A stretch of DNA of 64,000 nucleotides, taken from positions 1 to 64,000 of the forward strand of contig NZ_JDTZ01000005.1 in the NCBI RefSeq assembly GCF_000771225.1, read 5' to 3'. Below the pieces are notes generated by a model that had not been told where the DNA came from, did not search any database, and worked only from the letters and a program-made list of their open reading frames with translations. The position numbers and the translations under genes are program-made. The stretch is from Bifidobacterium pseudolongum subsp. pseudolongum DSM 20099. Its GTDB lineage: Bacteria; Actinomycetota; Actinomycetes; Actinomycetales; Bifidobacteriaceae. Below are positions 40,671 to 63,948 of the stretch, piece by piece (the first letter of the stretch is position 1; every line of letters begins with the position of its first letter).

Positions 40671-40698
40671 CATGTGGTCGGACGGTCGGTTATCCACA
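40671..40698 (-). promoter_or_regulatory. 28-bp box upstream of flp (copy 1 of 2)
   Basis: Sense (minus) sequence starts TGTGGATAACCGACC and ends GTCCGACCACATG. It matches 27 of 28 positions with the box at 44437-44464 upstream of cpaE. It contains the direct repeat CCGACC-gt-CCGACC and begins with a DnaA-box-like 9-mer. It starts 5 nt after the tadC stop, 108 bp before the flp start. Confidence 0.75.
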
Positions 40699-44436: not shown

Positions 44437-44464
44437 CATGTGGTCGGACGGTCGGCTATCCACA
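44437..44464 (-). promoter_or_regulatory. 28-bp box upstream of cpaE (copy 2 of 2)
   Basis: Same sequence as 40671-40698 except one base (C at 44456 for T at 40690). It lies 48 bp before the cpaE start. A second partial DnaA-box-like 9-mer, CTATCCACA, lies next to it at 44466-44474. Confidence 0.75.
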
Positions 44465-44486
44465 GCTATCCACATCGCCTTGTGCG

Positions 44487-59044: not shown

Positions 59045-60421
59045 TCAGACCCCCTGTTGCATGTTCTGGGCCATGTCGCTGAAGCGCGAGTACTGGCCCT
59101 GGAACCCGAGTTGGAACGTTGCGGTGGGGCCGTTGCGGTGCTTTGCCATGATGATGTCCGCCTCGCCCGGCCTGTCCTCTTTATCATAGACGTCGGGGCG
59201 GTGCACCAGGAAGATCACGTCGGCGTCCTGCTCGATCGAGCCGGATTCGCGCAGGTCGGAGATCTGCGGCTTGCGGTCGTTGCGCATCTCGGAATTGCGG
59301 TTGAGCTGGCTCAACGCCACGACCGGCAGCTCGAGCTCTTTCGCGAGCAGCTTGAGCGCGCGCGAGAATTCGGAAACCTCCTGCTGGCGGCTTTCCACCT
59401 GCTTGCCCGAGCTCATGAGCTGCAGATAGTCGATCACCACGAGCTTGAGGCCCTGCGTCTGCTTGAGGCGGCGGCACTTGGCGCGGATCTCCATGAGGCT
59501 CATGTTCGGCGAATCGTCGATGTACAGCGGGGCGCTCTCGAGCTTGCCGTAGAAGTCGTTGAGCACGTTCCAGCGGCCGGGGTCGATGTCGTCGGGGTTG
59601 CGCATCGCGGCGAGCGGAATGTTCGTCTCCGCGGCGATGATGCGCTGCGCGAGCTCGATGCGGCTCATCTCGAGGCTGAAGATCACGGTGGGCTCGTGGT
59701 GCTTGAGCGCGGCCGAACGCGCGAAGTCCACGCCGAGCGTCGATTTGCCCATCGCGGGGCGGCCGGCCACCACCACCATCTGGCCGGGCTGCAGGCCCTT
59801 CGTCATCGCATCGATCTCGCGGAAGCCGGTGGGGATGCCGGCTTCGATCTCGCCTTTCTGGATGCGGTCGATCTGGTCGAGCGCCGTGTTCACGGCGTCG
59901 CGCAGCGGCACGTAGTCCTGATGCACCTTGCCTTCGCCCATCTCGTAGGCCTCGGCCTGTGCCAGGTTGATCACGTCCTGGGCCTGCGCGCCGCCGGCGT
60001 TGTAGCCGAGCTGGGTGATTTTGGTGCCGGTGGCGATCACGCGGCGCAGCAGCGCGCGCTGGTGCACGATCTCGGCGTAATACAGGGCGTTCGCGGCCGT
60101 CGGCACCTCCGACGCCAGGTCGTGCAGGTAGTTCACACCGCCGATCTTCTGCAGGTCGCCGCGCTCGTCGAGCTTCGTGGCCACCGTCACGCTGTCCACG
60201 GGGTCGCCGGCGCTGAACATGGCCAGGATCGTCTCATAGATCGTCTGGTGGTTCGGCTGGTAGAAATCCTCGGGGTCGAGGGCCTGCGAGATCTCGCCGA
60301 TTGCGTCTTTGCTCACGAGCATGCCGCCCAACGCGGCGCGCTCGGCGTCATCATCGTGCGGGGGCACGCGGTCGAACAGCGATGCGTCATTCATGTCGGT
60401 TTTCTGGAATCCTTCAGCCAT
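59045..60421 (-). CDS. dnaB: Replicative DNA helicase
   Basis: 458 aa. N-terminal interaction domain (PPHDDDAERAALGGMLVSKDAI), then the RecA-type helicase domain with VVAGRPAMGKSTLGVDFA (Walker A), LVVIDYLQLM (Walker B) and SQLNRNSEMR. No intein. The ATG at 60421 is chosen on the promoter position; MNDASLFDRV at 60394 would be the alternative. First gene of dnaB-murT-gatD. Confidence 0.95.
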   Translation of the reverse strand: MAEGFQKTDMNDASLFDRVPPHDDDAERAALGGMLVSKDAIGEISQALDPEDFYQPNHQTIYETILAMFSAGDPVDSVTVATKLDERGDLQKIGGVNYLHDLASEVPTAANALYYAEIVHQRALLRRVIATGTKITQLGYNAGGAQAQDVINLAQAEAYEMGEGKVHQDYVPLRDAVNTALDQIDRIQKGEIEAGIPTGFREIDAMTKGLQPGQMVVVAGRPAMGKSTLGVDFARSAALKHHEPTVIFSLEMSRIELAQRIIAAETNIPLAAMRNPDDIDPGRWNVLNDFYGKLESAPLYIDDSPNMSLMEIRAKCRRLKQTQGLKLVVIDYLQLMSSGKQVESRQQEVSEFSRALKLLAKELELPVVALSQLNRNSEMRNDRKPQISDLRESGSIEQDADVIFLVHRPDVYDKEDRPGEADIIMAKHRNGPTATFQLGFQGQYSRFSDMAQNMQQGV

Positions 60422-60613: not shown

Positions 60614-61207
60614 ATGGCAAGTATCGAAGACATCAGAACCAGCATCATCAACGACCCGCGCAACGCGCGCTTCACCGCCGAAGGGTGGAAGCCGGTGTTC
60701 TCCGCACCATCCACCGCCGTGATCACGATTGTCGGCCAGACGCCGAGCGCGGACGCGCAGCGCAGCGGGCTGTGCTGGGACGACCGCAGCGGTGACCGCC
60801 TGCGCGAATGGCTCGACGTGGACCGCGAGACGTTCTACCATTCCGGCCTGTTCGCGCTCGTGCCGATGGATTTCTACTTCCTCGGCGATGGAGAGGACGG
60901 CCATGGAGACACACCGCGCCCGTGGGTCGCGCCACAATGGCACCCGCAGATCAACGCGGACCTGCCGCATGTGCAGCTGACGGTCCTAGCGGGCGAAGAC
61001 GCGCAGCGCTACTACCTGCATGAGAACACCGAAGCGCGCGAGACGCAGACCGTGGAGCATTTCGAACAATACCTGCCCAAGTTCTTCCCCATCGTGCACC
61101 CTTCGGGCCGCACCAACATCTGGCGTACCGAGCATCCGTGGTTCGACGAGCGCGTGATCCCCGCACTGCGCACACGCGTGCATGGGATCATCGACGCGCG
61201 GCAGTGA
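60614..61207 (+). CDS. Uracil-DNA-glycosylase-family protein (copy 1)
   Basis: 197 aa. UDG-superfamily fold: ITIVGQTPSADAQ at the water-activating loop, DRETFYHSGLFALVPMDFYF, VQLTVLAGEDAQRYYL and the minor-groove loop FFPIVHPSGRTNIW. Compared with copy 2 the first motif is GQTPS instead of GQAPG. Base-excision activity is only inferred. RBS GGGAGG decides the ATG. It is followed by a paralogue after 32 bp. Confidence 0.8.
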   Translation: MASIEDIRTSIINDPRNARFTAEGWKPVFSAPSTAVITIVGQTPSADAQRSGLCWDDRSGDRLREWLDVDRETFYHSGLFALVPMDFYFLGDGEDGHGDTPRPWVAPQWHPQINADLPHVQLTVLAGEDAQRYYLHENTEARETQTVEHFEQYLPKFFPIVHPSGRTNIWRTEHPWFDERVIPALRTRVHGIIDARQ

Positions 61208-61239
61208 CGTGCCCTGCCCCCTACATGGAAAGGTGACCG

Positions 61240-61821
61240 ATGGAAACGATTGAGCGCATCACACAGGAGATCATGGCCGACCCGGCCAACCGCAGCTACA
61301 CCGAGCGGGGCATTCCACCGCTGTTCAGTGCGCCCACGACCGCGCGCATCAACATCGTGGGGCAGGCGCCGGGCGTGCGCGCGCAGGAGACGCGGCTGTT
61401 CTGGAACGACCCAAGCGGCGACCGCCTGCGCGCATGGATGGGCGTGGACCGCGACACGTTCTACCATTCGGGCATGTTCGCGATCCTGCCGATGGATTTC
61501 TATTTTCCGGGCAAAGGCAAATCAGGCGACCTGGCGCCGCGGCGCGGATTCGCCGAGAAGTGGCATCCGCGCATCCTGGCCGACCTGCCCGATATCCAGC
61601 TCACAATCCTCGTGGGCCAATACGCGACGCACCACTACCTGCACCTCAAGTCGTCGGTCAAGCTCACGAGCATCGTCGAGGACTACCGCAGCTACCTGCC
61701 CGAGTTCTTCCCCATCGTGCACCCTTCGCCACGCAACGGCATCTGGCTCGGCGCCCACCCGTGGTTCGAGCGCGACGTGGTGCCTGCGCTGCAGCAGCGC
61801 GTGCACAGCATCCTGCAGTGA
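61240..61821 (+). CDS. Uracil-DNA-glycosylase-family protein (copy 2)
   Basis: 193 aa, alignable to copy 1 over its whole length (SGDRLRAWMGVDRDTFYHSG, IQLTILVGQYATHHYLHL). Motifs INIVGQAPGVRAQE and FFPIVHPSPRNGIW fit the superfamily better than those of copy 1. GGAAAGGTGACCG precedes the ATG. A tandem duplication is clear; functional divergence is possible. Confidence 0.82.
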   Translation: METIERITQEIMADPANRSYTERGIPPLFSAPTTARINIVGQAPGVRAQETRLFWNDPSGDRLRAWMGVDRDTFYHSGMFAILPMDFYFPGKGKSGDLAPRRGFAEKWHPRILADLPDIQLTILVGQYATHHYLHLKSSVKLTSIVEDYRSYLPEFFPIVHPSPRNGIWLGAHPWFERDVVPALQQRVHSILQ

Positions 61822-61901
61822 GCGAAAACAGCGACGCTGGATACCAGTCCAGCAGGCCACTGCATTTTGGCGGTGGGCAGAAAACCACGGTGATGCCGCC
61901 C

Positions 61902-62017
61902 TGTGGATTGGTGTATCCACAAAATCGTGATTTATCCACATTCTGGGGATAACCATGTGGATTGCCGCTGATTTTATCCACATTCGGTGGATAAGTCTGT
62001 GGATAGCGTGGGGATAC
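61902..62017. other. Array of DnaA-box-like 9-mers
   Basis: Nine 9-mers resembling TTATCCACA: two perfect (61932-61940, 61974-61982), five with one mismatch (61913, 61944, 61986, 61998 and, more weakly, others), and weaker ones at 61902, 61956 and 62009. Orientations alternate. Start intervals are 11, 19, 12, 12, 18, 12, 12 and 11 bp. It lies between the glycosylase gene and the 3' end of glnD. No dnaA, dnaN or gidB gene is nearby. Confidence 0.75.
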
Positions 62018-62091
62018 GAGGTGTACAGCCTCCATTCCCCACTGTTCCGATTTGCCATATGGCTAGTTCTCTGCTATACTGCCCGCACCAT

Positions 62092-63948
62092 TCACATGTG
62101 GTATTGCGCGACCGAAGCCATCGTCGTCACCAGTTTGGCGCGCCACCGGCTCCACCCCACCTTGCCCGAGATCTGCTCTTCGGCGGTGGCTCCCAACGAA
62201 CACATGTCGGCACGCGTCAAGTCGAACAGCATGTCGAGCAGCGCCGGGTCGTGCTCCACGCGCCGCGCAAGCTCACCGCCCGCCTCGGGGTCGTTCGGGT
62301 TGCGCGAACTCGCGAATTCCGAAAGTGTCAGATGCTCGCGCACAAGCAATGTAGCCCAGTGCACGATTCGCGGGTCGAAACCCATGCGCGTGAGCACCGC
62401 GCGCGCATGGCGCGCCCCTTCACGCGCGTGGTCAGTGACACCGGGCCGTTTGCCGATGTCGTGCAGGATCCCCGCGAGCAACAGCGCCGTGTACTGGTCG
62501 CTCGTGTAGTTCTCGGATGTGCGCGGCGCCACCCCGGCCGCCAGAAAATCGGGACGCACATGGGTGAGCTGCGCCGTCACTTCGAGCATGTGCCGGTCGA
62601 TTGTGAAGCGGTGCGCGGCGGAGGCGCTCGGCCGGTTGCGGATCGCCTCCCATTCGGGCATCCACCGGCTGGGGATCCCCACAAAGTCCAGCTCCTCCCA
62701 CGTGCGCGCCAGTTGATCGCCGGTGGCGAGCAGGCGCACGAACAGCGCGCGCGTCTCGTCCGTCCACTCCGTGTAGCGGATCGGTGCGCGCCGCAGGTTC
62801 AGCAGTGTGGACGTATTGATCGAAAGTCCGTGTTCGGCCGCTGCTACCGACGCACGCAGCGGCAGCGCGCCGTCGGTCCGCACATCGGCGCCGGGGGCGA
62901 GCACAACCTCGTGTTCGTGCTCGGCCACGCCGGCGGCGAGCACGTCGAATGTCGGCGCTTCGCGTTTGCCGCCGGCGCGCGGATGGCGGAGCTGAAAGAA
63001 CGAAAAACGCGGTTTGTCATGCACGAGTGTGCGTTCGGCGCGCGCCGCCGTGGCGTCGAGCGAGAACGCGATGGTGCGCCCGAGCCGCGCGAGCAATGTC
63101 TGCAAATCATCGATCGACTTCGCCTCGCGCGCACCACTCGGCAGCGTGGGATCCGCAAGCCCGAGCATCGCGGCTACCGGCGCCTGGTATGGCGCGAGCA
63201 ACAGGTTCGTGTCTTTGCCCGCGGCCATATGGATGCAGTCGCGCACATCGAGCAGGCGTTCCACACTGGCGTCGTACCTGCCGTGCGGGCGGTCCGCGAG
63301 CCACGACGCGGCGAGCGCGCCCAACAACACGGTGTCGCGCAGTCCGCCGCGTGACTCCTTGATGTCGGGCTGGTTCACATACGGCATCTGCCCGAACCGC
63401 TCCAGCCGCACGCGCGCGGAGTCGAGCAGTTCCGGCAGCCGTTTGCGCGCGGCCTTGCGCCAGCGCTCCAAAATGGCGGTGGATGTGCGCGTCACGAGTT
63501 CACCGTCGCCCGCGACCGCGCGCACGTCGAGCCAGCCCATCGCCGCCGGCAGGTCGTGGTCGGTCACGGCCTCGCACTCCGCCACTGTGCGCACCGAATA
63601 ATCCAGGTCGATTCCCGCGTCCCAGATTGGATACCACAGCTTGTTCGCGAGTTCGGCGAGCCGCGCATGGTCCAACGCGCGGCCGTCGCTGATCAGCACG
63701 AGGTCGAGGTCGGACGCGGGGCCGATCTGCCCGCGCGCGAGCGAACCGACGGCGGCGAGCGCTACGCCGCGACTCGGCACGTCGAACGGCACGGCCTGCG
63801 CGGCTTCGTTCCACAATTGCGCCAGCGCGTCCATCGCGAGCGCGGTGCGCGCGGCGCGCTTGGCGGTGCCGCCGCGCAGTACGCCGTCCGCGTCCGGCGC
63901 GCTCAGTTCGAGCATGCATGTTTTGAGATCGCTGACTGCGCTGGGCAT
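62092..63948 (-). CDS. glnD: [Protein-PII] uridylyl- or adenylyltransferase, short form
   Basis: Nucleotidyltransferase that modifies the nitrogen sensor PII. 618 aa. NTase motif VGSLARGQIGPASDLDLVLI, the segment QPDIKESRGGLRD typical of GlnD, and an HD domain with LLAGILHDIGKRPGV and DHAREGARHA. The C-terminal ACT repeats of enterobacterial GlnD (about 890 aa) are missing; the protein ends soon after ISGKVGWSRWRAKL. AAAGGAA lies before ATG 63948. No PII or amt gene is in the window; they may lie beyond the right edge. Confidence 0.87.
   Translation of the reverse strand: MPSAVSDLKTCMLELSAPDADGVLRGGTAKRAARTALAMDALAQLWNEAAQAVPFDVPSRGVALAAVGSLARGQIGPASDLDLVLISDGRALDHARLAELANKLWYPIWDAGIDLDYSVRTVAECEAVTDHDLPAAMGWLDVRAVAGDGELVTRTSTAILERWRKAARKRLPELLDSARVRLERFGQMPYVNQPDIKESRGGLRDTVLLGALAASWLADRPHGRYDASVERLLDVRDCIHMAAGKDTNLLLAPYQAPVAAMLGLADPTLPSGAREAKSIDDLQTLLARLGRTIAFSLDATAARAERTLVHDKPRFSFFQLRHPRAGGKREAPTFDVLAAGVAEHEHEVVLAPGADVRTDGALPLRASVAAAEHGLSINTSTLLNLRRAPIRYTEWTDETRALFVRLLATGDQLARTWEELDFVGIPSRWMPEWEAIRNRPSASAAHRFTIDRHMLEVTAQLTHVRPDFLAAGVAPRTSENYTSDQYTALLLAGILHDIGKRPGVTDHAREGARHARAVLTRMGFDPRIVHWATLLVREHLTLSEFASSRNPNDPEAGGELARRVEHDPALLDMLFDLTRADMCSLGATAEEQISGKVGWSRWRAKLVTTMASVAQYHM

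Follow-up and report, generated by a model that had tools for sequence, protein, structure and literature searches.

Background

Clusters of DnaA boxes lying on the chromosome outside oriC are described for Bacillus subtilis and for an actinobacterium, Streptomyces coelicolor (PMC5742627), and in Escherichia coli the non-coding box cluster datA keeps a conserved position with respect to oriC (PMC4585315). It requires an IHF site, located between the key boxes (PMC5742627, PMC4585315), and read-through transcription at this locus has been linked to the departure of IHF (PMC10950094). DARS1 and DARS2 of E. coli contain close, oppositely oriented boxes, a head-to-head pair, within a short core of three boxes (PMC5742627, PMC4585315). 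DnaA also acts as a transcription factor (PMC4447404), and at DnaA-regulated promoters boxes are found upstream at helical distances. As to the genus considered here, the published bifidobacterial oriC sits at dnaA (PMC2788695), and the oriC clusters of B. longum are made of TTATCCACA-type boxes (PMC2430713). All these statements refer to the available portions of the cited papers. As to function, datA stimulates hydrolysis of DnaA-bound ATP and curbs untimely initiation, an effect also ascribed to the Bacillus and Streptomyces clusters, and the DARS sites bring about release of ADP from DnaA.

The locus described here lies in a stretch of 64,000 nucleotides from Bifidobacterium pseudolongum subsp. 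pseudolongum DSM 20099, the whole of which is called the window. As in the Bacillus and Streptomyces type, several boxes are clustered outside oriC; unlike those clusters, this one has a 42-bp layout kept throughout the genus (weaker in the family), fixed places for strong and variant boxes, and a promoter in phase with them. Oppositely oriented boxes 12 bp apart occur twice, a possible likeness to the DARS sites, whereas about eight boxes in two 42-bp repeats replace the three of the DARS core. Gaps between adjoining boxes do not exceed 10 bp, which we take to be too small for an IHF site, given the site size that we assume; there is therefore no room for a datA-type IHF site, though the working principle of datA may still apply. 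Compared with other DnaA-regulated promoters, the box array is long, and the promoter is kept even where no gene follows it. Among the literature matches listed (titles and openings of abstracts, mainly of freely accessible papers), none described the array itself.

Results

The box array and its surroundings

The window belongs to contig C19, in a genome of 1.9 Mb whose DnaB is 99-100% identical to the DnaB of two B. pseudolongum subsp. globosum strains. A mismatch scan of the 64-kb window identified nine DnaA-box-like 9-mers, with up to two mismatches from TTATCCACA, at 61902-62017: two are perfect (61932, 61974), four carry one mismatch (61913, 61944, 61986, 61998) and three carry two (61902, 61956, 62009). 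Start-to-start steps are 11, 19, 12, 12, 18, 12, 12 and 11 bp, corresponding to gaps of 2, 3, 9 or 10 bp. The nine boxes, two perfect ones and near-helical spacing of the original prediction were thus reproduced. The elements are listed below, with their offsets in the genus-wide layout described in the next section.

61902-62017, no strand: whole DnaA-box array, nine boxes
61902-61910, minus: box CAATCCACA, two mismatches, not part of the genus-wide layout
61913-61921, plus: box GTATCCACA, one mismatch, near layout offset 0, where many relatives have a minus-strand box
61932-61940, plus: box TTATCCACA, layout offset 18
61944-61952, minus: box TTATCCCCA, layout offset 30
61956-61964, minus: box CAATCCACA, layout offset 42
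61974-61982, plus: box TTATCCACA, layout offset 60
61986-61994, minus: box TTATCCACC, layout offset 72, mostly TTATCCCCA in relatives
61998-62006, minus: box CTATCCACA, layout offset 84
62009-62017, minus: box GTATCCCCA, layout offset 95

The three boxes at 61932, 61944 and 61956 are repeated exactly at 61974, 61986 and 61998, forming a 42-bp repeat of about four helical turns. The GC content is 45% in the array and 64.6% in the window. As a control for chance, 100 order-1 Markov resamples of the 64-kb window were scanned: the largest cluster within 116 bp contained 4 boxes with up to two mismatches and 2 with up to one, against 9 and 6 in the window, so that the density does lie beyond chance, as had been proposed. 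No Rfam match was found in 61000-63000 up to E=1, and folding of the array as a single-strand hairpin gave a z of -1.8, with 10 of 200 shuffles folding equally well. TTATCCCCA is absent from the seven oriC box types given for B. longum in the available portion of PMC2430713. Elsewhere in the window, two CTATCCACA boxes lie 10 bp apart at 44456-44474, and a lone perfect TTATCCACA is found at 40690.

The neighbouring features are the following.

59045-60421, minus: dnaB, replicative helicase; starts 1.48 kb from the array, which it adjoins in most relatives, and is displaced here
60614-61207, plus: UDG-superfamily gene 1, between dnaB and the array
61240-61821, plus: UDG-superfamily gene 2, between dnaB and the array
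61835-61854, minus: terminator-like hairpin past the array, on the strand of glnD; weak, as shuffles yield 0.8 such sites
62092-63948, minus: gene for a GlnD-like nucleotidyltransferase, with 74 bp between its 3' end and the array

The UDG gene pair separates dnaB from the array in the window's clade. Its two paralogues (60614-61821) are 54% identical, and are also found between dnaB and the array in genome G027. If the hairpin at 61835-61854 were used as a terminator, the glnD transcript would cross both the promoter described below and the array. Of the neighbours recognised at 59-64 kb none is dnaN, and the single copy of dnaA (PF00308) lies on the same contig at C19:263988-264491, about 202 kb from the array. 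The absence of dnaA from the vicinity and a distance of 1.5 kb to dnaB, both noted in the original prediction, were in agreement with these measurements.

Conservation and layout across the genus

In each genome the locus examined either surrounded the array or lay upstream of dnaB, and was picked partly by array matches (28 loci, 1.5 kb flanks) and partly via dnaB, glnD or array positions; the markers were found in 79 (glnD), 111 (dnaA) and 112 (dnaB) of 112 genus genomes. At least four boxes within 125 bp, allowing up to one mismatch from TTATCCACA or TTATCCCCA, are present at the dnaB/glnD region in 111/112, and the conservation in relatives that had been suggested as a check is therefore found. 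Shuffled loci never contained more than two (200 shuffles, preserving base composition only, as also for the layout score below). The exception, G097, lacks boxes upstream of dnaB; a contig edge lies at the 3' end of its glnD. A DNA search with the array matched 103/112 genus genomes at E<=1; the strong matches share one common core stretch, while the weak ones may be due to chance.

The common layout has boxes at offsets 0 (-), 18 (+), 30 (-), 42 (-), 60 (+), 72 (-), 84 (-) and 95 (-), and thus contains the 42-bp repeat. A layout score of at least 53 out of 72 was reached by 103/112 genus genomes, the maximum for 30 shuffled loci being 37; G007, G018, G022, G039, G040, G050, G065, G094 and G097 fall below 53. 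In 62 non-redundant cores, box columns carry 1.39 bits of information and spacer columns 0.62. Box position 7 is C at offsets 72 (56/62) and 95 (51/62), and A at offsets 18 (61/62), 60 (60/62) and 84 (60/62). Forty-two cores bear a box at offset 30, with C at this position in 40 of them, and the remaining 20 non-redundant cores have GGCGTGT there. Conservation hence extends to the order in which strong and variant boxes follow each other.

A strict three-box motif, searched throughout the order, was found in 15/396 genomes. Thirteen belong to the genus (22 sampled), all with the match at the array locus, two lie outside the family, and none of 13 sampled genomes from the family's other genera was positive. 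The two matches outside the family (L224, L225) adjoin genes which, from their translations, we take to be rhomboid-, DUF881- and sortase-like, and not dnaB. Among the named loci, weaker forms of the layout are found in the asteroides group, Bombiscardovia and Scardovia, and no such layout near dnaB in Galliscardovia. In B. pongonis (L154, L155) the dnaB-array region is present twice on one contig, in opposite orientations and with identical DnaB; this is either an assembly artefact or a duplication, the matching genome, G060, having 8% contamination.

A predicted outward promoter in phase with the array

To the right of the last box, a TTGC-N19-TA pattern corresponds to a predicted promoter with a -35 element, a 17-bp spacer and an extended -10 element, TG preceding the TA. 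In 51 of 61 non-redundant units this pattern starts 22-24, 33-35 or 44-46 bp after the last box (0.14 expected); the three distance windows were picked after the data had been seen, yet 51 of the 52 such patterns within the first 90 positions fall inside them. TG is found before the -10 in 49 of the 51. These counts refer to the fixed pattern, units with a right flank shorter than 120 bases being dropped; a per-genome display that takes the best -10 match is biased, and the fixed-pattern count was used instead. Since the distances differ by steps of 11 bp, the promoter always faces roughly the same side of the helix. A fixed helical distance from the boxes, as expected of a DnaA-regulated promoter, is thus what is found, and it amounts to 34 bp in the window:

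62052-62080, plus: outward promoter TTGCCA-N17-TATACT; -35 at 62052-62057, spacer ending in TGC, -10 at 62075-62080; 34 bp past the last box

It is the sole promoter-like site found in 61700-62700 (0.2 in shuffles), and its start site is expected near 62087. Helical phasing between the array and an extended -10 promoter facing outward, seen in relatives and not anticipated in the original prediction, makes a role in transcriptional control at least as well supported as titration.

The gene downstream of the promoter

In at least 62 of 111 units, the array is followed by a gene which, from its sequence, we take to encode a DinF-like MATE transporter, and which reads in the promoter direction in 62/62 cases. 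This count is a lower bound, since the copy of G047 lies just beyond the stretch covered. In G013 and G042 the MATE gene is found in the same direction, about 5 and 10 kb downstream, and in other genus genomes it is relocated or was not found; the own genome has no MATE match at E<=1e-25.

Of 21 non-redundant units that have no MATE next to the array, 19 retain the phased promoter, the window included; it is absent in 8 of 40 units with MATE. The latter are 8 of the 10 (out of 61) in which it is missing, and MATE must use something else there. When nine genomes with a MATE-less array were aligned, the promoter core and a short start were conserved, followed by divergence, with variable flanks. 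A small RNA transcribed from the promoter is disfavoured by this divergence after the short conserved start.

Relation to dnaB

The array adjoins dnaB in most of the family, and could be a DnaA-dependent control region for this gene. Among 102 loci having both, 70 have the array at most 700 bp upstream of dnaB, a proximity also seen in Scardovia and the asteroides group. In the other 32 it is displaced, in many lineages, by 0.8-6.3 kb, and near and far states change 11 times on a DnaB tree of 80 named loci, a quick tree in which 27/69 inner branches are weakly supported and 'far' includes loci without an array within 4 kb.

Moreover, 16 units are inverted relative to the flanking genes, with the layout in each; MATE, present in 15, turns with the unit. 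Inversion is found in Gardnerella and B. callitrichos. The 16 units belong to four genomes larger than 2 Mb and twelve small, Gardnerella-type ones, and two inversion events are needed on the DnaB tree (named loci). The orientation of G048 and G075 is not settable, so both are excluded from the 16; the left-motif count of 16/18 includes them. A fixed orientation close upstream of dnaB is thus not what is found, and in the direction of dnaB there is no promoter in phase with the array, only 2 isolated TTG-N16-18-TANNNT matches occurring in 41 near units. An element serving dnaB should not tolerate displacement or inversion. A dnaB promoter element as the main role of the array is therefore rejected, and dnaB control is considered improbable.

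Motifs to the left of and inside the core

A GACAC[GAT]C motif is found within 60 bp to the left of the core in 89/103 units (0.014 expected per 60 bp). The distance of GACACGC to the left of the array is nearly fixed, at 16-23 or 32 bp. In the window's clade the GACAC motif is absent left of the array. Inside the core, at about the offset-30 box, GGCGTGT is present in 34/103 genus cores, for example in L093-L103, in the Gardnerella-type L113-L119 and in L183-L207; it may be the site of a second protein, swapped in. GACAC is the WhiA motif of Streptomyces in the available portion of PMC3781837, and a WhiA family protein is encoded in the own genome. WhiA as a partner at the array is only a lead, and the motif is missing in the window's clade.

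Core and flanks in the clade of the window

The 104-bp core differs from those of two relatives by 1 and 3 substitutions. The right intergenic stretch differs at 22/73 and 20/68 positions (Fisher p 6e-9 and 7e-7 versus the core), and the left one at 9/92 and 32/91, with Fisher p over the flanks ranging from 7e-3 to 2e-9. The right flank, though diverged, contains two blocks, -35 and TGCTA, that do not differ among three B. pseudolongum-clade genomes; the -10 is TACACC in the two nearest relatives, weaker than the TATACT of the window. As the core is nearly unchanged and the promoter blocks are identical while the flanks diverged, array and promoter core look selected in a clade that has neither MATE nor dnaB beside them.

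The locus could also be a fossil, the drifting remnant of a lost MATE promoter. The missing MATE match in the own genome, the displaced dnaB, the absent left GACAC motif and the weaker -10 of the two nearest relatives would agree with this. Drift is hard to reconcile with a 104-bp core that has changed at 1 and 3 positions when the right flank has diverged by about 30%, and with the retention of the promoter in 19/21 non-redundant MATE-less units, and we regard a fossil as very improbable. A chance or fossil origin of the array is disfavoured by the resampling together with the contrast between core and flanks.

Chromosomal position

In 24 single-contig genomes, the distance between array and dnaA is 41-417 kb, or 0.05-0.33 of a replichore (median 0.23; about 0.21 here). 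An origin-proximal place fits a titration or control site; being a consequence of gene order, the conserved place is not independent evidence.

A dense group of boxes close to a helicase gene could suggest a secondary or unusual replication origin. As is usual for origins, dnaA has its own box cluster, separate from the array and arranged differently; the array, about 202 kb away, does not adjoin dnaA as an oriC would. An oriC would also have an AT-rich unwinding element beside its boxes; in gross composition the flanks of the array, at 65% and 53% GC against 64.6% for the window, are not AT-rich. The layout score is 63 for the array and 37, the background level, for the own oriC locus. GC skew gives no indication either way, since the array is 2 kb from the end of the window. 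The array is thus unlikely to be an origin, and even a secondary one is scarcely credible, also in view of the bifidobacterial oriC published at dnaA. Of the options raised in the original prediction, a conserved box array away from dnaA, at a place fitting titration or control, is retained, and an origin element is set aside.

A second dense cluster, of five perfect and three one-mismatch boxes, is found at C19:182440-182667 (L032 2441-2668), about 80 kb from dnaA, with a layout score of 39. Judging from translations, it presumably adjoins rhomboid- and CrgA/DUF881-like genes. It may represent a wider actinobacterial cluster, as the only strict-motif matches outside the family adjoin genes of similar type.

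The array might instead be a stand-alone DnaA sink or a control site for the DnaA state, in the manner of the B. subtilis and S. coelicolor clusters or of E. coli datA, its promoter being secondary: a site doubling soon after initiation would soak up DnaA or help to inactivate it, so that re-initiation is delayed. This is the main rival reading, possible if somewhat doubtful. The array is origin-proximal in 24/24 single-contig genomes; it survives displacement of dnaB, absence of MATE and inversion of the unit; and its core is conserved relative to the flanks in the window's clade. G007, with 6 boxes kept and the right end and phased promoter lost, suits a stand-alone binding site better. Precedents are the Streptomyces and Bacillus clusters (PMC5742627), and titration in E. 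coli is favoured by box density near the origin (PMC12371093), according to the available portions of these papers. Plain titration, on the other hand, requires number and affinity of sites, not exact spacing or positional strong and variant boxes, and leaves the 11-bp quantised promoter spacing unexplained.

Discussion

The rigid layout, the phasing of the promoter and the one-sided association with MATE make a DnaA-controlled promoter module the best reading, in which the array would be the DnaA-binding half of a small self-contained unit; we hold it with about even confidence. The array is probably also a chromosomal DnaA sink, and both roles may hold. The array itself, its geometry, conservation and phasing and the gene neighbourhoods are direct observations; from the sequence we infer DnaA binding, its cooperativity, the direction of control and transcription, as follows.

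DnaA would load on the two strong plus-strand boxes and spread cooperatively across the phased boxes, the variant TTATCCCCA sites included, to form a complex of fixed shape. The distance from this complex to the outward extended -10 promoter downstream of it would take one of three values that are equivalent on the helix. By arithmetic, the last box is centred near -63, -74 or -85 relative to the promoter start, where a class I activator would stand. The complex would most likely adjust the firing of the promoter to the cellular DnaA state. For most relatives, transcription from it would run into the MATE (DinF-like) gene; here it would meet no recognised gene, and dnaB is displaced, with array and promoter core still kept.

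It would be unusual for a transcription switch to have a promoter with no gene behind it, and this counts against the promoter module, as do the weaker -10 of the two nearest relatives and the 10/61 units without a phased promoter. The gene-less promoter could rather be built into a replication-control element. Outward transcription would then remodel or strip the DnaA assembly, rather as IHF is linked to departure from datA upon read-through (PMC10950094), or supply negative supercoiling behind it, so that sequestration and release follow growth and cell-cycle state; MATE would hitch-hike, and in most lineages a second factor, with WhiA as a candidate, would dock at the GACAC-type site at the other end. 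We consider this fairly unlikely.

Replication timing is poorly known in actinobacteria without E. coli-type regulators. The array would provide a single compact site, present throughout the genus, at which control by DnaA can be tested in harmless gut bacteria. Its rigid geometry, its stepped promoter distance and the variants found in nature, which are inverted or lack the gene or the promoter, offer test cases from the outset. The locus is also relevant to the question whether DnaA-box clusters work by titration or through structured complexes.
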